Source: Bacillota bacterium
GTDB lineage: Bacteria > Bacillota > Clostridia > Peptostreptococcales > Acidaminobacteraceae
Direction: 5' to 3'
Assembly (NCBI GenBank): GCA_024636005.1
Contig: JAGXHV010000032.1
Coordinates: forward strand, 1-64,000
DNA: 64,000 bases
Shown: piece after piece, positions 33,011 to 61,518 of the stretch
Layout: the number at the start of each line of letters is the position of its first letter
How positions within the stretch are numbered: position 1 is the first letter of the stretch
Notes under the pieces: generated by a model
What the model was told of the DNA's origin: nothing
The model's input: the letters and a program-made list of their open reading frames with translations, nothing else
The model's database searches: none
Position numbers and translations under genes: made by a program

Positions 33011-33125
33011 ATTTGAAATTTCACGAATATTCTGACAATTGTGTACAAATCTTAAAATATCAGTTCATAGTCATGGGTATATTATTGTGATAAGATTAAA
33101 AAAAACACATAAATACAGGATGGTT

Positions 33126-35561
33126 ATGATGTTATCTTACAAAAGAATCAGGAAATTGGTATTTATTGTTATTATGGCTTCATTATTGATGTTTGCTTTT
33201 TTTCGTTTTTCAAACAACACTTTTGATGAATCCAAACTTAATACTGACAACATTATGGGTCATATTGAAAAATTGTCCTCCGATGAGTTTAATGGACGTC
33301 AGGCGGGGTCGAGTGGAGATTTATTGGCACTTGAATACATAAAAGACTATTTCACTATGATTGGGCTTGAACCTGCTGGGATTGATGATGGTTATTTACA
33401 ACCGTTTTCGGTTTTAATTCCCAATGTGGACACTGACCCTGTTTTTGAGATTGAATCAGATACAGGTACGATACTAAAGTCTTTTGAGATGTATAAAGAC
33501 TTTAGTGTCGTGTTGTCCCCAAATGGAGGAGGCATTGATTATTATGGAGAAATGATTCTGGTCGGGAATGATTTTCTAAGAACGGATCCTGAGGAAATCA
33601 AAGACAGAATTGTAGTGATAGAATTCAACTACCTTAGTCCACGTGTCGTGTCTCATATTATTGAGGCCGGTGGAAAAGGTATTCTTTGTAGTACTGATAC
33701 GAATACATTCAATCCGCCACAGACACGTGAGAAGACTAAATCCTTTGATATTTCAGGTAAAACCAATGAATCTATTTTATTGGGATATATTTCATCGGAT
33801 TCATTTCGATATTTGAATTCTATTATAGAAAAGAATGAAGATCGTACTTTGGAAGAACCCATTGGAATCATTGACCGCGTAAGAATCAAGATTGATATTG
33901 ACTATCCAGTAGTCGAAACAGCAAACGTATTGGGTAAAATTAATGGTAAATCATCAAAAGAAAGTATACTCCTTATTACAACAAACATAGATGGTTTGGG
34001 AATTGGAACAGGAGAAAATCACTTCCCAGGGGCCATAAATAATACTTCAGGTATTGCAATAATGCTTGAAATGGCAAGAACTATGACCCAACAAGAGACT
34101 CTACCTGACCAGACGGTTGTCTTCGCAGGCTTCAATGGTCAAGAGCAGCAACTTTCAGGATCGGGTCATTATATCGATTATCCGATCTATCCACTTGAGC
34201 AGACCACGGTCATTCATATTGAATACATCGGAAAAGCATCGTTTGAAGGACTCAGTATTGCCTCAGACCCGATCAATGGTACGATTATCAAAGATAGAAT
34301 CAGCAAATATGCTGATGATATGGGGCTTCTGACTGTGCTGAACCCTACTGGTTATGGTGTGATCACTCAACTTTCGAACAAGAAAGTCCCTTCTGTGCAA
34401 CTTAATGACAGCAGTAGGACACAGAACTCATATGAAGATAGTTTTGAGAATGTAGATGAAAAGACCATTGATAACTCTGCGAATGTCTTACTCCATTATA
34501 TCAAAAGAGATGTTTACAAAGATTCAGGAATTGATTATTTGAATTCCGTGGAGATATTTCTTCTTGTTTTGATTGCATTCGCTGGATTACTTAGTTATTT
34601 GATTGTCAAAGGGTACAATGCTTTTCCAAATAGGATCATTGCAGGCAACCGTATTGAAGATTTATATTTTTCTACACCTGTTTTAATGGTCAGAAAGTTC
34701 TTTACGACAGTACTGCCATATTTTCTAGCAGTATTTATGTTATCGCTTCTCGCAAATATCGATCCTGGAACCAACTTGAAAGTAATCAATGGAGAAGCGA
34801 CCACCAATGTATCCTGGTATTTGACACTAAAGAAAAGTGTGCTCTATTTAAGGTCAATGATTGATTTGGGTACATACCAATCCGATACGGTAGGCAATAT
34901 TTTCAAAGTGATTTACGAGTCTAGCAAACTTAGTATCGCTTTAGTGGCTACATCACTTTTGGTGTCCACAATAGTCGGTATTTTACGTGGAATGGTTGAA
35001 GGGTATAGGTCCAAAAAAGCAAAATTGGGCTCTCTTGCTACGCTCGTCTTTTTTTCTATTCCGGATGTGTTGATTGTATTGCTTGTGCTTTTGGGGTACA
35101 CGTTCATTGCCAGACAGTTCCCAAATATAAAAGACTTTATGCCGCTAAAAGCATTCATATTGCCGCTTTTTACACTTTCAATCATTCCGACGATCTATAT
35201 TTCCAGAATTACATTGATCAGCATTCAAGAAGAGCTCGTCAAAGATTATATTAAAAATGAAAAAGCCAAAGGTTTTTCGAGACGTAAAATAATATTCGTT
35301 GAACTGATGCCTTCAATTTTCTATAAAATTATTGATACCATGCCTACAATCATGACAATGCTTTTATCCAATATGATTGTTGTAGAATACTTGTTCAACT
35401 ATAAAGGCATTTTATATTATTTGATTTATCTGTACGGGCGTCAAGATATTTATAGATTCGTTCCACTTGCGATGACACTTGGACTGATTTTTATTGTCTT
35501 CACCAAAGGGTTTCAGTTGCTTGCAAAAATGATCAATCCACTGAAACGTAAGGGGGTCTAG
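33126..35561 (+). CDS. Fusion: N-terminal TM + extracellular degenerate M28-peptidase-like domain + complete Opp/DppB-type ABC permease
   Basis: M28-like core TANVLGKINGK...LLITTNIDGLG...GAINNTSGIAIMLEMARTM...TVVFAGFNGQEQQLSGSGHYI...IHIEYIG...TQNSYEDSFENVD; then TMs and OppB-like region with permease loop VKDYIKNEKAKGFSRRKIIFVELMPSI. Start ATG 33126 or 33129. Confidence 0.85.
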   Translation: MMLSYKRIRKLVFIVIMASLLMFAFFRFSNNTFDESKLNTDNIMGHIEKLSSDEFNGRQAGSSGDLLALEYIKDYFTMIGLEPAGIDDGYLQPFSVLIPNVDTDPVFEIESDTGTILKSFEMYKDFSVVLSPNGGGIDYYGEMILVGNDFLRTDPEEIKDRIVVIEFNYLSPRVVSHIIEAGGKGILCSTDTNTFNPPQTREKTKSFDISGKTNESILLGYISSDSFRYLNSIIEKNEDRTLEEPIGIIDRVRIKIDIDYPVVETANVLGKINGKSSKESILLITTNIDGLGIGTGENHFPGAINNTSGIAIMLEMARTMTQQETLPDQTVVFAGFNGQEQQLSGSGHYIDYPIYPLEQTTVIHIEYIGKASFEGLSIASDPINGTIIKDRISKYADDMGLLTVLNPTGYGVITQLSNKKVPSVQLNDSSRTQNSYEDSFENVDEKTIDNSANVLLHYIKRDVYKDSGIDYLNSVEIFLLVLIAFAGLLSYLIVKGYNAFPNRIIAGNRIEDLYFSTPVLMVRKFFTTVLPYFLAVFMLSLLANIDPGTNLKVINGEATTNVSWYLTLKKSVLYLRSMIDLGTYQSDTVGNIFKVIYESSKLSIALVATSLLVSTIVGILRGMVEGYRSKKAKLGSLATLVFFSIPDVLIVLLVLLGYTFIARQFPNIKDFMPLKAFILPLFTLSIIPTIYISRITLISIQEELVKDYIKNEKAKGFSRRKIIFVELMPSIFYKIIDTMPTIMTMLLSNMIVVEYLFNYKGILYYLIYLYGRQDIYRFVPLAMTLGLIFIVFTKGFQLLAKMINPLKRKGV

Positions 35562-35563
35562 CC

Positions 35564-37825
35564 ATGAAAAAAATGAATCTGCCACTTTTGCTGGGTAGCG
35601 TAGTTTTGATAGTGATCCTTTTGGTGATGATGTTTCCAGAAATGTTTGTCGATCAAAGTCCCTATACTATACAACATACGAGATTTCTTCATGGAGATGG
35701 GAAACTTTACATTGAAAGAGCACCGTTTCCTCCGGCCAAAGATTTTATACTTGGAAGTGATCATTTGGGTCGGGATATATATAGTTACATTATTTATGGT
35801 ACCCGTCTAACTATAACGCTCAGTGTGATGATTGCCATAGGACAATTCTTGGTGGCAATACCGATGGCATTATACGCCGGTTTCGGAAATCGAGTTGCCA
35901 AATCTGTCATATTGCAGACTGGTGTGATTTTTTCTGCTATCCCAGCATTGCTGATTGCCATAATAGTATTGAAACTGGACTTTTTCGTTGGACTTGAGAA
36001 ACAAAAATCCATAATTGCCTTTATTGTTGTTTTAACAAGCGTGAGCTGGCCAAGGCTTGCGGGTCTGATTTTAGAAAGAGTAGAAGCGATACTTACTCAG
36101 CCGTTTATCCGAGGGGAAGTCGCTATTGGAAAAAGATATTTCAAAATCGCGATGGAGAATGTTTTACCACATTTGGCTCCAGAGATGATCATTTTGTTTT
36201 TTATGGAAATCGCACGAAACCTGTCTATGATGATGCAACTTGGAATATTTGCGGTATTTGTTGGAAATTTAGGTTTGATCAGTGATGCTTCGGCGGGTAT
36301 CCCTATCAATTTGACTGTAAGTTTTGAACCTGAGTGGGCAAGTATGCTGAGTACATCCAGAACTTTAATCAGTACAGCGCCTTGGGCGATAATTTATCCC
36401 GCACTGGCTTTCTTCATCAGCGTACTCGGGTTTAATTTGTTTGGAGAAGGGCTTAGAAATACCATGCAAAAAAAAGATTCTCGTGCTGTTTTACTGTTTA
36501 GAAAAATAATTTCATTCGATTTTAAGTATATTTGGAGAAATAGTGAAAAAAAAATAAAAGTGAAAATGGCCATTTGGACAATCGCCTTCACATTTTTATT
36601 AGGGCTGTTTACTTGGATCAACAACGAAGATTACAGTATCGGGTACAGGACCGATTCATCAGAATTGCCTGAACAGGTTGTCATTGGTACCGAATCTGCA
36701 GTTAAAACCGCGAATTATATCGCAACCAAGATGTCCGAAATGGGAATTGAACCAATAAAAAACGAAAGTTATTTGATGGGTTATGATATTGGACCATCTT
36801 ACCTCATTGAATCTCAATTGTTGAGGCTGAACGTCCCAGGAACCCCCATTGAATTAAAAAAAGATTCGGATTATGCATTTATGACCTCAGGCAATATAAG
36901 TGAAACCGGACCTATTTATGATGCAACACGAGAGGATATGTTTGATCTCCAGGATTATAGTCAATTTGAAGGTCATTATGTTTTACTGGATAAATCCTAC
37001 TACAACGATAGTGCAATTGGATATTTCATTGACAACATCACTCAAAATGTCAATATTAAAGGCATCCTACTTATAGCGAATAAAGATGAGAAGCTTGAAA
37101 ATGTTATTGTTCATGCGAGCGAGGAATTGGCGGTTATAATCGTTTCCAGAGAGGCTTCAAAAAAAATGATTGAATATCCAGACGTTAGCATTACCATCGA
37201 AACTGTGGTTAAACCCATTGATTCAATGGGTTACAATGTCGTTGGAATCTATAAGGGGACCGATAAGAACATAGGAGATGAAGCCATCGTCATCGGAATG
37301 AATTACAATTACCTTGAGAGCAACAATAAAGAAGTTCTTGAATTTAATCTCAAATTGATGGAAAAACTTTGTGGTCTCGCTACCAACAAGAGGTCCATTA
37401 TTTTCATGTTCTTGGATGGTACCATCAATGAAGAACAACACGGTATACACTATATTGCTCAGGATTTCCCATACAGTTCTCAAAAAGTTCAAGTATACAT
37501 CGACCTTACAGGGATTCGAACCACAGAATTTGGAAAAGTGGAGTTTAGTACTGCTCAAGCACCAATCACAAGACAATTTTCGTGGAGTCTTGGGCATCAT
37601 CTCAATAAAGAACTGAATAACAAAGATTTTGATCTCCAGCAGCTTGAGGCTATGTTTATTAATGGGGAGTACTATTTTACGGGCAGTATCGCTGATAACG
37701 CTCTCTTCTGGAACCGCGGCATGCCAACCATCATCATCGGAACCTTGCGAGCTGAAGAAAACAAGAAAAATCTTGAGGATCTAGGTGCTATCATTCTTGA
37801 AGTCATAAGTAAAAACAACTATTAA
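35564..37825 (+). CDS. Fusion: Opp/DppC-type ABC permease + extra TM + C-terminal degenerate M28-like domain
   Basis: LGSDHLGRDIYSYIIYGTRLTITL, permease loop TQPFIRGEVAIGKRYFKIAMENVLPHLAPE; extra TM MAIWTIAFTFLLGLFTWI; tail YNVVGIYKGTDKNIGDEAIVIGMNYNYLE...SIIFMFLDGTINEEQHGIHYIAQDFP...VYIDLTGI. Confidence 0.82.
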   Translation: MKKMNLPLLLGSVVLIVILLVMMFPEMFVDQSPYTIQHTRFLHGDGKLYIERAPFPPAKDFILGSDHLGRDIYSYIIYGTRLTITLSVMIAIGQFLVAIPMALYAGFGNRVAKSVILQTGVIFSAIPALLIAIIVLKLDFFVGLEKQKSIIAFIVVLTSVSWPRLAGLILERVEAILTQPFIRGEVAIGKRYFKIAMENVLPHLAPEMIILFFMEIARNLSMMMQLGIFAVFVGNLGLISDASAGIPINLTVSFEPEWASMLSTSRTLISTAPWAIIYPALAFFISVLGFNLFGEGLRNTMQKKDSRAVLLFRKIISFDFKYIWRNSEKKIKVKMAIWTIAFTFLLGLFTWINNEDYSIGYRTDSSELPEQVVIGTESAVKTANYIATKMSEMGIEPIKNESYLMGYDIGPSYLIESQLLRLNVPGTPIELKKDSDYAFMTSGNISETGPIYDATREDMFDLQDYSQFEGHYVLLDKSYYNDSAIGYFIDNITQNVNIKGILLIANKDEKLENVIVHASEELAVIIVSREASKKMIEYPDVSITIETVVKPIDSMGYNVVGIYKGTDKNIGDEAIVIGMNYNYLESNNKEVLEFNLKLMEKLCGLATNKRSIIFMFLDGTINEEQHGIHYIAQDFPYSSQKVQVYIDLTGIRTTEFGKVEFSTAQAPITRQFSWSLGHHLNKELNNKDFDLQQLEAMFINGEYYFTGSIADNALFWNRGMPTIIIGTLRAEENKKNLEDLGAIILEVISKNNY

Positions 37826-37851: not shown

Positions 37852-38814
37852 ATGAATAATAAACTTCTTGAAGTCACAGACCTGAAAGTGTCTTTTTATC
37901 ACGAAACCGGAAAAGTTCAAGTGGTAAGAGGCTTTGATATGAGCCTCGATAACGGTGAGATTATTGGAATCCTTGGTGAATCCGGAAGTGGAAAGACTGT
38001 TTCCGCTACAGCGATTTTGAAACTGGAAGAAGATGATGTGAGTTGTATTGATTCAGGTACGGTTATTTTTAAAGGGTTGAGTTTATTGGACCTTCCAGAA
38101 ACTGAACTGAGAACAATCAGAGGCAATAGGATTTCGTATATATTTCAAAATGCTTCAAGTGCGCTAAACCCATATAAAAGTATAGGAAAGCAGTTGAGTG
38201 AAGTGCTTAAGAACCATAAATTACGCTATTCAAAGGAGATCGTTCTGAGTACACTCAGCGAAGTTGGGATTGAAGATGTTGAGATGGTCTATGACATGTA
38301 TCCGTTTCAGCTCAGTGGAGGACAAAATCAAAGAATCATGACTGCTCAATGTATCATCAGCAAACCTGATCTGCTGATTGCGGATGAACCAACAAGTTCA
38401 ATAGACGCTTCGTTAAGAAAAATAGTACTCGATTTGCTGAAGGAAATTAATAGGAAAACAAACATGTCGGTAATCATTATTACACATGATTTTGATGTTG
38501 CCAAATATCTATGTAATAGGTTGATAATCATGTATGGTGGTCTTGTTGTTGAAGAAGGCACTATAGATGAAATCTTCAAAGATCCGTTTCATCCTTACAC
38601 AAAGGAATTGATTGTGTGCGCAAGCTCGTTGACTCGTGGAGATGATATCGTCTATACTCTTGAAGGATTTCCACCTACGCCATTTGAATTTGGGAATGAA
38701 TGTCCTTTTGCAAATCGATGCAAGGTGAGGTTGCCTGAATGTACGTCAGGAATTCCACGTACTTTAGAGATTGGAAAGAGGAAAGTGCGCTGCATCAGAT
38801 TTGAAGAGAGGTGA
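37852..38814 (+). CDS. Opp/DppD-type ABC ATPase
   Basis: GESGSGKTVS, QLSGGQNQRIMTAQ, LLIADEPTSSID, C-terminal CPFANRCKVRLPEC cysteine motif typical of OppD/DppD. Confidence 0.93.
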   Translation: MNNKLLEVTDLKVSFYHETGKVQVVRGFDMSLDNGEIIGILGESGSGKTVSATAILKLEEDDVSCIDSGTVIFKGLSLLDLPETELRTIRGNRISYIFQNASSALNPYKSIGKQLSEVLKNHKLRYSKEIVLSTLSEVGIEDVEMVYDMYPFQLSGGQNQRIMTAQCIISKPDLLIADEPTSSIDASLRKIVLDLLKEINRKTNMSVIIITHDFDVAKYLCNRLIIMYGGLVVEEGTIDEIFKDPFHPYTKELIVCASSLTRGDDIVYTLEGFPPTPFEFGNECPFANRCKVRLPECTSGIPRTLEIGKRKVRCIRFEER

Positions 38815-38818
38815 TTTA

Positions 38819-39601
38819 ATGTCTATAATTGCGTTAAAAGTAGAAGGGCTATCCAAACATTTCATAATCAAAAGGAGTGTTTTTTCAAAGAAGATAAAAA
38901 TAGATGCAGTCAAGAAAATTAATTTTGTAGTAAAACAGAATGAATCTATGGGTTTGATTGGTGAGAGTGGTTCAGGCAAAACGACCATAGCAAACATGTT
39001 GCTCAAACTCATTGATTCTAGTGAGGGGAGCATTGAGCTCTTTGGAGTGGATATTACAAATTTGAATGGGGAAGCAATGAGAGCGCATAGAAAAGACATT
39101 CAAATCATCTTTCAATACACCCATGCAGTCTTGGACCCTAAAATGACTATTGAAGAACTGATCAAAGAACCTTTGGTAATCCATCAGATTGTTAAAGAAC
39201 ACGATCTTGATGAAGAAGTGGATAGACTGCTTCAGATGGTGGGCCTTTCCATATTGGAAAGAAAAAAATTCCCATCACAATTGAGTGGAGGACAGAATCA
39301 AAGGATTATAATCGCACGAGCAATAGCCACGAGGGCAAAACTCATCGTTTGTGATGAACCTGTTTCTGCACTCGATGTATCCGTACAGGGCCAGATTTTG
39401 AATCTTTTAGTGAAACTCAAAGAAGAATTGGGACTTACCTATGTATTGATTACTCATGACCTTAGTGTCGTCAAACACATGTGCAATCGCATAGCGGTCA
39501 TGTATCAAGGGGAAATTGTGGAAATTGGAGAAACCGAGAAAGTACTTTCAAATCCTACGAATCCTTACACAAAGAAGTTGATAGCGTCTATTTTAGATTA
39601 A
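38819..39601 (+). CDS. Opp/DppF-type ABC ATPase
   Basis: GESGSGKTTIANMLL, QLSGGQNQRIIIARA, IVCDEPVSALDVSVQGQILNLL; ATG at 38819 after GAGAGG. Confidence 0.92.
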   Translation: MSIIALKVEGLSKHFIIKRSVFSKKIKIDAVKKINFVVKQNESMGLIGESGSGKTTIANMLLKLIDSSEGSIELFGVDITNLNGEAMRAHRKDIQIIFQYTHAVLDPKMTIEELIKEPLVIHQIVKEHDLDEEVDRLLQMVGLSILERKKFPSQLSGGQNQRIIIARAIATRAKLIVCDEPVSALDVSVQGQILNLLVKLKEELGLTYVLITHDLSVVKHMCNRIAVMYQGEIVEIGETEKVLSNPTNPYTKKLIASILD

Positions 39602-57968: not shown

Positions 57969-59006
57969 ATGAAAAAAGCATTTTCGTTATTGATGGTATT
58001 GATTTTATCGTTCTCTCTTTTGGCAGGCTGTGCCAATGAACCAGAAGTAGTAGCAGAAACACCTGCGGAAACTACTGCAGCAGAAGAAACACCTACAGAA
58101 GAACCAGCACCGGTTGATGAACCTGTTTCATTTGACGACATATTCGTAAATATCGGTACTGGCGGTACTGCAGGTACTTACTTCCCACTTGGAGGAGCAT
58201 TTGCAGAAATCTGGAACCAAAATATCGACGGCATCAACGCAACTGCACAAAGTACTGGTGCATCTGCTGCATACATCAACTTGTTGATGGATAAAAAAGT
58301 AGAAGTTGTTATCGTACAAAACGATACTGCACTCTATGCTTACGCTGGCGAAAAAATGTTCGAAGGTCAAACATTTGAAGGCATCAGAGGCCTTTCTACA
58401 TTATACAGCGAGCCACTTCAAATTGTAACTTCCGATCCTACTATTAAAACTGTTGCCGACCTTAAAGGTAAGAAACTTGCTGTAGGCGCTATCGGTTCAG
58501 GTGTTGAAGCCAATGCAAGACAAATCATTGCAGCGGCAGGTATGGATTTTGAAACAGACATCGATGCAAAATTCTTATCATTTGCTGAAGCATCAGCAGG
58601 ACTAAAAGACAAGCAAGTTGATGCAGCTTTCTTGACAGCTGGTATTCCAACAGCAGCAATCCAAGACTTATCAGCACAAAACGATGTATTCATTGTTGCT
58701 ATTGAAGGCGATATTGCTAACACACTCAAAACAGACTACAAATTCTTTACTGATTATGTCATTCCTGCAAACACTTACAAAGGTCAAACTGAAGATGTAA
58801 ACACATTAACTGTTAAATCAATGCTTGTTGTATCTACAGAGATGAGTGACGAATTGGCGTATGAACTCACAAAACAAATCTACGAAAACCTTGACCGTGT
58901 TCTATTGGCCCATAACGTAGGTAAATTCATCACACTTGACACTGCACTTGATGCAATGCCAATTCCAGTACATCCAGGTGCTCAAAAGTATTTCGACGAG
59001 CAATAG
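57969..59006 (+). CDS. TAXI-family TRAP transporter solute-binding lipoprotein
   Basis: Lipobox LLAGC; VNIGTGGTAGTYFPLGGAFAEIWN; TVADLKGKKLAVGAIGSGVEANARQI. Confidence 0.95.
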   Translation: MKKAFSLLMVLILSFSLLAGCANEPEVVAETPAETTAAEETPTEEPAPVDEPVSFDDIFVNIGTGGTAGTYFPLGGAFAEIWNQNIDGINATAQSTGASAAYINLLMDKKVEVVIVQNDTALYAYAGEKMFEGQTFEGIRGLSTLYSEPLQIVTSDPTIKTVADLKGKKLAVGAIGSGVEANARQIIAAAGMDFETDIDAKFLSFAEASAGLKDKQVDAAFLTAGIPTAAIQDLSAQNDVFIVAIEGDIANTLKTDYKFFTDYVIPANTYKGQTEDVNTLTVKSMLVVSTEMSDELAYELTKQIYENLDRVLLAHNVGKFITLDTALDAMPIPVHPGAQKYFDEQ

Positions 59007-59041
59007 GATCCAATTAGCTAAAGATAGAGAGAAGGGAAGAT

Positions 59042-59545
59042 TTGTTTAGAAGAATTGTCATCGCGATACTTGGTCTTATATTAGGGGTGTTGTTGGTGTT
59101 CACTGGACTTCAGGATCGAACCGTTTTGATCGTGGAAGAACAGTCTTCAGGGGTGCAGCATGAGCTTTATCCCGCTGATGACCACTTTGTGCTGAGTTAT
59201 GTCCATTCGGTACTTCTGACACCCGTAGATGAATATTTTATCATAACGGAAGACAATGATTTGATACTCCAAAAGACTGTTTATGAGTCTTTTGGAGTAG
59301 GACTTCCCTATGAACAGATCAATGATGCGGATTTTGAAATAGTAGATGGTAAGTTTATTTTATATTTGGAGCGGCAGTTTAAAAGTCTCAATATGATTAT
59401 TTCGCCAATACCCAAGCACAGCATCACTGTCAATGGTGAAACATTTCAGTTTAATGAGATGCTTGAAGTACAGGAACAATCTATCAAGATTTTTACAATA
59501 GATAAGAAAGTCTTTAAAATTGGCAACTATTCGGTTGTCCTATAG
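59042..59545 (+). CDS. DUF1850-type protein of a TAXI-TRAP locus
   Basis: HFVLSYVHSVLLTPVDEYFII, YESFGVGLPYE; sits between TAXI and the permease; TTG start. Confidence 0.8.
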   Translation: MFRRIVIAILGLILGVLLVFTGLQDRTVLIVEEQSSGVQHELYPADDHFVLSYVHSVLLTPVDEYFIITEDNDLILQKTVYESFGVGLPYEQINDADFEIVDGKFILYLERQFKSLNMIISPIPKHSITVNGETFQFNEMLEVQEQSIKIFTIDKKVFKIGNYSVVL

Positions 59546-59559
59546 GAAGGAACGGTGTC

Positions 59560-61518
59560 ATGTCTGACTTGAATTTAAAAAAACAAACAGATGCAGTGTC
59601 AGAAGGCTCCCCAGATGACCTGCTCAGAAAATATGACAAAGGTTCGGATTTCAGAATATTAAGTGGCATACAAGGAAAGTTGATTATCGGTCTGCTGGCT
59701 TTGTTTTCATTTTTTCAGTTGTATACAGGAATTTTCGGGATATTGGATGCTATGCTTCAGCGTTCGATTCACCTTGCATTTGGTTTGACCTTAGTATATC
59801 TTTTATATCCTTCGAGGAAAAAATTCTCAAGATTCAACCTTCATCCGCTGGATGTCGGTCTGGCGATACTCGCTGGAAGTGTATGTCTTTATGTTTTCTT
59901 TAATTATTCCAATCTGGTATATAGAGCGGGAAGAGTTACAACAACTGATATGATCGTTGGACTTATTGCTATATTTTTAGTGCTTGAAGCAGCGCGTAGA
60001 GTCATTGGATGGCCTATGGTCATTATCGCTTTAACATTTATAGGGTACGCACTTTTAGGACCTAAAATTCCAGGGCCATTGGCACACAGAGGTGTTGCTA
60101 TGGAAGACTTGGTACAACACTTATTCTACACAACAGAAGGAATTTTCGGTATTCCTATTGGGGTTTCATCAACATTTATCTTCATGTTTCTCTTGTTTGG
60201 TGCTTTTCTTGGAAAGACTGGAATGGGTGAGTTTTTTATTGATATCTCAAACGCGATTGCAGGTTCTGCTCCAGGTGGTCCCGCAAAAGTAGCGGTTATA
60301 TCCAGTGCGACAATGGGCACATTATCAGGAAGTTCGGTAGCCAACGTTGTCGGTACGGGTAGTTTTACAATTCCTATGATGAAAAAATTAGGATACAAGC
60401 CTGAATTTGCAGGTGCTGTTGAAGCAACCGCCTCTACAGGTGGACAATTGATGCCTCCAATCATGGGTGCGGCAGCGTTTCTGATGGCAGAATTCACCAA
60501 TATTCCTTATGTCACTATAATAGCAGCGGCTGTAATTCCAGCTGCACTATACTATTTCGGCGTATGGGCTGGTGTACATTATGAAGCCAAAAAACAAGGG
60601 CTTAAGGGCATGTCTAAAGAAGAGTTGCCTAAAGCGGGTAGAGTAATTAAAGAGAGGGGCCATTTAATGCTCCCAATCATCATTGTTATTTACCTACTGG
60701 TTTCCGGATATACTCCGATTAGAGCTGCACTTGGTGCAATTGCTGCAGCTATTGTTGTTTCTTCCTTTAAAAAAGAAACAAGGTTATCACTTAAAGAAAT
60801 TTTCTTTGGACTTGTAGAAGGTGCAAGAAGTGCACTCACTGTTATAGCAGCATGTGCAACTGCCGGTATCATCATCGGAGTTGTCACTCAAACTGGTTTA
60901 GGACTCAAAATGGGCTCATTACTTGTTAGTGTTGCAAATGGTAATCTCTTCTTAACACTTGTATTTACAATGATCACATCGCTCATTTTAGGTATTGGTG
61001 TCCCTACGACAGCAAATTATGTAATAACAGCTACAATTGCTGCACCAGCATTATTGTTACTAGATGTTCCAATTCTTGCTGCTCATATGTTTGCGTTTTA
61101 TTTTGGAATCATCGCAGATGTCACGCCACCAGTTGCACTCGCGGCTGTAGCAGCATCAGGGGTTGCCAAGTCAGAACCAATGCGAACAGGAATTCAAGCT
61201 TCGCGCCTTGCAATTGCAGCATTCATTATCCCGTATATTTTCGTCTACAGCCCGGAACTCTTACTGATTGATGTAACCCTATGGCATTTGGTCTTTATTT
61301 TGACCACTGCAATCATCGGAATCATCGCAGTTGCTTCTGGTTTGACAGGTTACTTCCAGACGGAAATGAATCCACTAGAAAGAATTTTCTTTATTGTCGG
61401 TGGTGTAATGCTTGTAACCACTAGCCCACTTTACAATGCAATTGGTGCGGTAATGCTTGGAATCGCGATCTTCACACAATTTAGAAAGAAAAAAGCTACA
61501 GTTTTGGTACAAGCTTAA
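59560..61518 (+). CDS. TRAP transporter permease, fused 4TM/12TM
   Basis: PGGPAKVAVISSATMGTLSGSSVANVVGTGSFTIPMMKKLGYKPEFAGAVEATASTGGQLMPPIMGAAAFLMAEF. Confidence 0.95.
   Translation: MSDLNLKKQTDAVSEGSPDDLLRKYDKGSDFRILSGIQGKLIIGLLALFSFFQLYTGIFGILDAMLQRSIHLAFGLTLVYLLYPSRKKFSRFNLHPLDVGLAILAGSVCLYVFFNYSNLVYRAGRVTTTDMIVGLIAIFLVLEAARRVIGWPMVIIALTFIGYALLGPKIPGPLAHRGVAMEDLVQHLFYTTEGIFGIPIGVSSTFIFMFLLFGAFLGKTGMGEFFIDISNAIAGSAPGGPAKVAVISSATMGTLSGSSVANVVGTGSFTIPMMKKLGYKPEFAGAVEATASTGGQLMPPIMGAAAFLMAEFTNIPYVTIIAAAVIPAALYYFGVWAGVHYEAKKQGLKGMSKEELPKAGRVIKERGHLMLPIIIVIYLLVSGYTPIRAALGAIAAAIVVSSFKKETRLSLKEIFFGLVEGARSALTVIAACATAGIIIGVVTQTGLGLKMGSLLVSVANGNLFLTLVFTMITSLILGIGVPTTANYVITATIAAPALLLLDVPILAAHMFAFYFGIIADVTPPVALAAVAASGVAKSEPMRTGIQASRLAIAAFIIPYIFVYSPELLLIDVTLWHLVFILTTAIIGIIAVASGLTGYFQTEMNPLERIFFIVGGVMLVTTSPLYNAIGAVMLGIAIFTQFRKKKATVLVQA

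Follow-up and report, generated by a model that had tools for sequence, protein, structure and literature searches.

Cargo capture in type I ABC importers generally depends on a protein of the periplasmic-binding-protein fold, and in OpuA and GlnPQ this receptor domain is covalently fused to the permease. In eukaryotes, and outside any transporter, a catalytically dead M28 peptidase fold acts as a receptor in nicastrin and in the transferrin receptor. In the peptide transporter subunits DppB and DppC the chain ends are cytoplasmic. OpuA uses two substrate-binding domains (PMC11065425) and nicastrin has been reported to be the substrate recogniser of gamma-secretase (PMC5343570). E. coli DppABCDF, of the PepT family, comprises two permeases and two ATPases with the gene order B-C-D-F; DppB and DppC have six transmembrane (TM) helices each, and a periplasmic segment of DppB running from TM1 to alpha3, termed the scoop, binds in the cleft of DppA and has been proposed to seal the cavity (PMC12136057).

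The locus described here lies in a window of 64,000 nucleotides, the whole stretch of DNA that was analysed, and its features in that window are all on the plus strand. It consists of an operon in the order B-C-D-F, encoding OppB- and OppC-type permeases followed by OppD and OppF ATPases. The first gene (33129..35561, with an alternative start possible at an ATG at 33120) encodes an OppB fusion protein of ~810 aa that is matched by Pfam M28 (E 2.5e-16) and BPD_transp_1 (E 7e-11), and in which an N-terminal TM helix is followed by an M28-like ectodomain, a further TM helix and the OppB permease. The second (35564..37825, ATG start, 753 aa), described from its ORF and from NCBIfam, PDB, AlphaFold and Foldseek comparisons, encodes an OppC permease followed by a seventh TM helix (TM7) and an M28-like ectodomain. 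The OppD-type ATPase (37852..38814) has intact Walker A, LSGGQ and Walker B motifs and carries four C-terminal cysteines (284, 290, 297 and 314) at the [4Fe-4S] positions of DppD (positions taken from PMC12136057), while the OppF-type ATPase (38816..39601, 261 aa) has intact ATPase motifs and is without the Fe-S cysteine tail. By its permease and ATPase composition and its intact ATPase motifs the locus is classed as an Opp/Dpp-type ABC transporter.

Comparison with the described systems shows both likeness and difference. With DppABCDF the new transporter has in common the two permeases, two ATPases, gene order, DppC fold and Fe-S cysteines of the D subunit, but it is without a substrate-binding protein (SBP) gene or a scoop and has extra TM helices, M28-fold ectodomains and a hairpin in OppC. 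With SapBCDF it shares the BCDF composition and a scoopless B subunit, although the Sap system is without ectodomains and SapC is without the hairpin between TM5 and TM6. The likeness to OpuA and GlnPQ lies in a domain that is covalently linked to the permease and predicted to be outside, its receptor role here being putative; in those transporters, however, the receptor has an ordinary periplasmic-binding-protein fold whereas here it has a peptidase fold. That fold, including its PA-like part, is common to both ectodomains and to M28 aminopeptidases such as Aneurinibacillus AP (2ek8) and B. subtilis BSAP/YwaD, from which the ectodomains differ in being membrane tethered and in having lost the zinc ligands and catalytic base (except in the OppB domain of Geosporobacter and Anaerosolibacter). 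Fused receptors and eukaryotic dead M28 receptors are already known, but their combination, an M28 domain on an Opp-type permease, is apparently undescribed, no description of it having been found in the literature searched, in which subscription journals were thinly covered.

Residues 1-305 of the OppC fusion are of OppC type, as judged by matches to NCBIfam Opp2C (E 1e-32) and, by sequence, to DppC in the PDB (E 9e-16). In an AlphaFold model of the fusion made from a 37-row alignment (pLDDT 83.1) this half matches the DppC fold with a TMt of 0.81 in Foldseek. An 18-residue extracellular hairpin (residues ~236-253; 36269..36322) was recognised by loop-length comparison between TM5 and TM6, this loop having 23-27 residues in all 37 members versus 9 in DppC, SapC and canonical OppCs; it was modelled with low confidence as two strands and placed at the extracellular entrance. 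The permease is followed by TM7 (residues 329-353; 36548..36622), a hydrophobic helix that is also present in the AlphaFold model and was found in all 37 aligned OppC fusions, that of the window included, and then by an ectodomain of ~400 residues (355-753; 36626..37822). Single-sequence searches of Pfam, NCBIfam and the PDB with this ectodomain gave no M28 match, in Pfam no match of any kind, and a profile search of the PDB was not significant (BSAP 0.25). Among its relatives, Peptidase_M28 was matched by 13 of 37 members (best 1.4e-4), and the OppC fusions of a sister clade, described below, match Pfam M28 directly (E 1e-12 and 3e-9). When the 37 OppC ectodomains were compared with 33 OppB ectodomains by hhalign, the two profiles aligned over 362 columns with a probability of 99.7% (E 4e-26), and the top Foldseek match of the OppC model was to M28 aminopeptidases (2ek8, E 1e-15, TMt 0.60, probability 1.00). 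On the strength of this profile-profile comparison and fold search, the OppC-fused domain is assigned as M28-like and homologous to the OppB-fused domain. Within it the M28 core spans residues ~556-753, and the stretch before it (~430-555) can be aligned to the PA-like portion of the M28 aminopeptidases.

The OppB-fused PA/M28-like ectodomain (residues 30-468; 33216..34532) was identified by both Pfam M28 and a fold match, and the M28 fold is present in both ectodomains. The model of the OppB fusion (pLDDT 84.8) matched M28 aminopeptidases in Foldseek (2ek8, E 3e-23; BSAP, TMt 0.77). The transferrin receptor was matched by the models of both proteins, and two members of the OppB-domain set matched the Pfam nicastrin model. 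An N-terminal TM helix was found in 33 of 33 OppB fusions, and a second one after the domain (residues 473-498; 34545..34622) would return the chain to the cytoplasm before TM1 of OppB. In 36 of the 37 aligned OppC fusions the lysines and arginines preceding TM7 outnumber those that follow it (mean 4.7 vs 1.6). Both ectodomains are therefore predicted to be extracellular, given these added TM helices and the six-TM plan of DppB and DppC with its cytoplasmic ends.

The assignment of the M28 zinc-ligand and catalytic positions is backed by relatives with an intact site. In the OppC domain of the window the H-x-D motif of M28 is replaced by N580-Y581-N582 (37301..37309), the former catalytic Glu-Glu position is occupied by D618-G619-T620 (37415..37423), within an ‘FLDG’ in the F..EE region, and D647 (37502..37504), carried by ‘YIDLTG’, is the counterpart of the zinc-ligand Asp and is kept in almost all relatives; the GA.DN.SG segment is missing. 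The complete set of zinc ligands (H, D, E, D and H) and the catalytic Glu is present in none of the 37 OppC domains. N582 and D618 are each present in 35 of 37 aligned sequences and, together with G619 and D647, are almost invariant, although the pocket positions used in the test across all members were partly chosen because they are conserved. The near-invariance of this pseudo-site argues for the retention of a pocket or of a structural role rather than for decay, and the conserved residues may be structural rather than ligand binding. The first-pass annotation of this DNA had already placed an M28-like domain at the C-terminus of OppC, outside the cell beyond an extra TM helix, and had read its motifs as H.D changed to N.N, no GA.DN.SG and a YIDLTG; these readings hold in each particular. 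It had regarded a cytoplasmic C-terminal domain or a lack of structural similarity to M28 as evidence to the contrary, and the topology is predicted to be outside and the structural match is strong. The OppC hairpin insertion and the loss of the OppB scoop are both additions to that account.

In the OppB domain of the window the expected residues are likewise replaced, the first His by N286, the bridging Asp by N304, the base Glu by Q338 and the next Asp by E365; the final His is absent, and E339 and D288 are retained. Taken together, the pocket positions of the OppB domain were no better conserved than random, and of the old zinc positions only N286, D288 and Q338 are conserved in the window's clade. 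Among the 33 OppB domains the full set (H..D / D / EE / D / SDH) is found only in Geosporobacter (two) and Anaerosolibacter (two). In these four loci (L081, L082, L094 and L095) the M28 domain fused to OppB thus has all of its zinc ligands and catalytic residues, and may possibly be an active peptidase joined to a permease. This intact site would fit a peptide-handling ancestry.

The region of OppB on which an SBP would dock is also altered. The spacer between TM1 and alpha3 (approximately 34767..34847, from spacer length and the Opp2B profile) has 27 aa in the OppB of the window and 23-27 in the family, one truncated member being left out of this range, versus 34-43 in DppB and the six canonical OppBs of the window's genome. 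Correspondingly, the match to the Opp2B profile starts at position 71 for the OppB of the window and at position 1 or 2 for the six canonical proteins. Every member with sequence across this region lacks the scoop, as does the sister clade, whereas canonical OppBs that lie beside SBPs have it. No SBP_bac_5 gene was found in the 46 loci scanned with the SBP_bac_5 profile, for which positive controls gave 1e-181 and 1e-241. The sole weak matches to the SBP profile were a lipoprotein of the window (57969-59006) and a similar lipoprotein in another locus (L089); the former was rejected as a false match, being of TAXI/TRAP type. A binding protein and permease of a TAXI-type TRAP transporter lie at 57969-61518. 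The other opp operons of the window's genome have their own SBPs, and several SBP_bac_5 genes occur elsewhere in all genomes tested. The loss of the SBP-docking scoop from OppB makes a built-in receptor plausible. E. coli SapB (L131) is also without a DppB-type scoop despite the adjacent sapA binding protein gene.

Among 150 close genomes 24 match, the window's own included, and the GTDB species set yielded 38 loci; in a phylum-wide sample there was no full-length match outside the window's own genome. Members include Fusibacter, Geosporobacter, Anaerosolibacter, Maledivibacter, Clostridium intestinale, C. yunnanense, Soehngenia, Gudongella, Acidaminobacter and one MAG labelled Spirochaetales. 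On this evidence the fusion transporters form a family that is conserved yet patchily distributed, and that belongs mainly to the same order as the window. The B-C-D-F order is constant wherever the contig covers it, except in one genome (G066, locus L046) where B and C stand without D and F after them. This may reflect an assembly error or a real break, as may the division of the OppC fusion into two ORFs in the Spirochaetales MAG (L102:6404-8265) and a split OppB fusion in L075 (3913-6407). Relative to the nearest relative, dN/dS is 0.07-0.13 for all four parts, including both ectodomains, which are thus under purifying selection, and this together with conservation across ~38 loci excludes the fusion as a chance product. 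The ectodomains diverge more strongly than OppC itself (mean entropy 2.42 vs 1.44).

A wider search identified a sister clade (type 2) of seven loci (L133, L134, L135, L137, L142, L143 and L144) in which an M28-like domain, with its zinc site lost, is found only on OppC, while OppB is unfused, scoopless and ~314-338 aa long. The type-1 and sister clades are split with full support in the tree, and both are present together in Fusibacter bizertensis (G040) and in a second genome (G011). With the tree rooted on either canonical OppCs or the sister clade its backbone was unresolved, and losses of the OppB zinc site could not be counted. The OppC domain is, from these comparisons, taken to be the constant element, the OppB domain being either a type-1 addition or a type-2 loss. 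It had been suggested earlier that two paralogous-looking pseudo-M28 domains form a heterodimeric receptor above the translocation path. What stands of this is the presence of two paralogous M28-fold ectodomains without zinc sites, one per permease, predicted to be extracellular and without an SBP in the operon; what falls is the need for pairing, since the sister clade is without the OppB domain and pairing with it is therefore not obligatory. A mirror-tree signal of co-evolution between the two ectodomains is weak (partial r 0.24). The neighbours of the sister-clade loci vary and include an S41 peptidase, a secreted RNase A-type toxin domain, a MacB/FtsX transporter and a LytTR regulator.

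The computed features, namely the fold, the homology, the dead zinc site, the predicted outside topology, the conservation of the operon, the absence of SBP and scoop, and the hairpin, may be combined into a mechanism. The M28-fold domain of OppC, and in type 1 that of OppB also, would be anchored by TM helices on the outer side of the membrane and be without peptidase chemistry, the OppC domain presumably keeping a conserved pocket floor. The ectodomains could bind peptides by their N-terminal part, or bind a peptide-like ligand, or else control entry to the pore; the cargo would be handed to the cavity formed by OppB and OppC. Hydrolysis of ATP by D and F would power transport, most likely import, with both direction and peptide cargo inferred. 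We hold evenly balanced confidence in this reading, an SBP-independent transporter whose tethered pseudo-peptidase domains serve as cargo receptor or gate and which probably imports peptide-like ligands. A stronger form, held tentatively and with confidence just short of even, is that these are importers in which the binding protein has been replaced by tethered dead peptidases, the receptor having evolved from an enzyme that formerly cleaved this cargo, and that the OppB peptidase of Geosporobacter and Anaerosolibacter, apparently still active, trims as the transporter imports.

Export is the chief competing reading, since the scoop is likewise absent from SapB, which is annotated as a subunit of a putrescine exporter. 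In that case a small molecule or peptide would be pumped out by the BCDF core with no need of a binding protein, and the pseudo-M28 domains would be exit gates, adaptors or chaperones for the exported substrate. SapB has a spacer of 16 residues, in keeping with the literature on SapBCDF as a putrescine exporter, and the absence of the scoop from SapB means that scoop loss speaks for independence from a binding protein and not for import. The OppD with its Fe-S tail and the short OppF also recall the sizes of SapD and SapF, and among the type-2 loci one has a MacB/FtsX-type transporter as its neighbour and a second adjoins a secreted RNase-type toxin domain. However, the permease and ATPase profiles are nearer to those of importers (Opp2B, Opp2C, OppD and OppF) than to Sap, a biosynthesis, precursor or toxin neighbour is not consistently present, and it would be unusual for an exporter to carry two ectodomains so large and receptor-like; we consider export unlikely, though worth serious attention. 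No functional clue recurred consistently among the genes flanking related loci.

It is a good deal less probable that a diffusible binding protein encoded elsewhere serves this transporter and that the M28 domains are accessory, as scaffolds or as remnants of a peptidase that fed it. Although SBP_bac_5 genes are available in all genomes tested and the OppB domain has a full zinc site in four genomes, the scoop is missing family-wide, a linked SBP is absent, and a zinc-less OppC domain is always kept in both clades, which argues against mere decay. Slightly more improbable still is a sensor or regulator, in which the ectodomains would sense a peptide or a fragment of the cell wall, with the ABC core passing on the signal; the intact permease and ATPases, and the lack of a conserved two-component or regulator neighbour at the type-1 loci, speak against this, while the greater divergence of the ectodomains over OppC would fit changing ligands and a LytTR response regulator adjoins one type-2 locus.

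If the receptor reading is correct, the family would represent a second solution to cargo capture and a route from enzyme to transport receptor, akin to that of nicastrin in gamma-secretase. Cultured species are available among its members (Fusibacter, Geosporobacter and Clostridium intestinale). Proteins of ~700 aa, in which an M28-like domain with replaced zinc ligands precedes six or seven predicted TM helices, were also found (L136:5621-7735, L138:3426-5597, L139:5363-7486, L140:4221-6341, L141:4653-6749 and L145:4493-6610), and are possible donors of the fused domains. Those of L136, L138, L141 and L145 adjoin an SBP and a canonical OppB/OppC operon in which the scoop is present.
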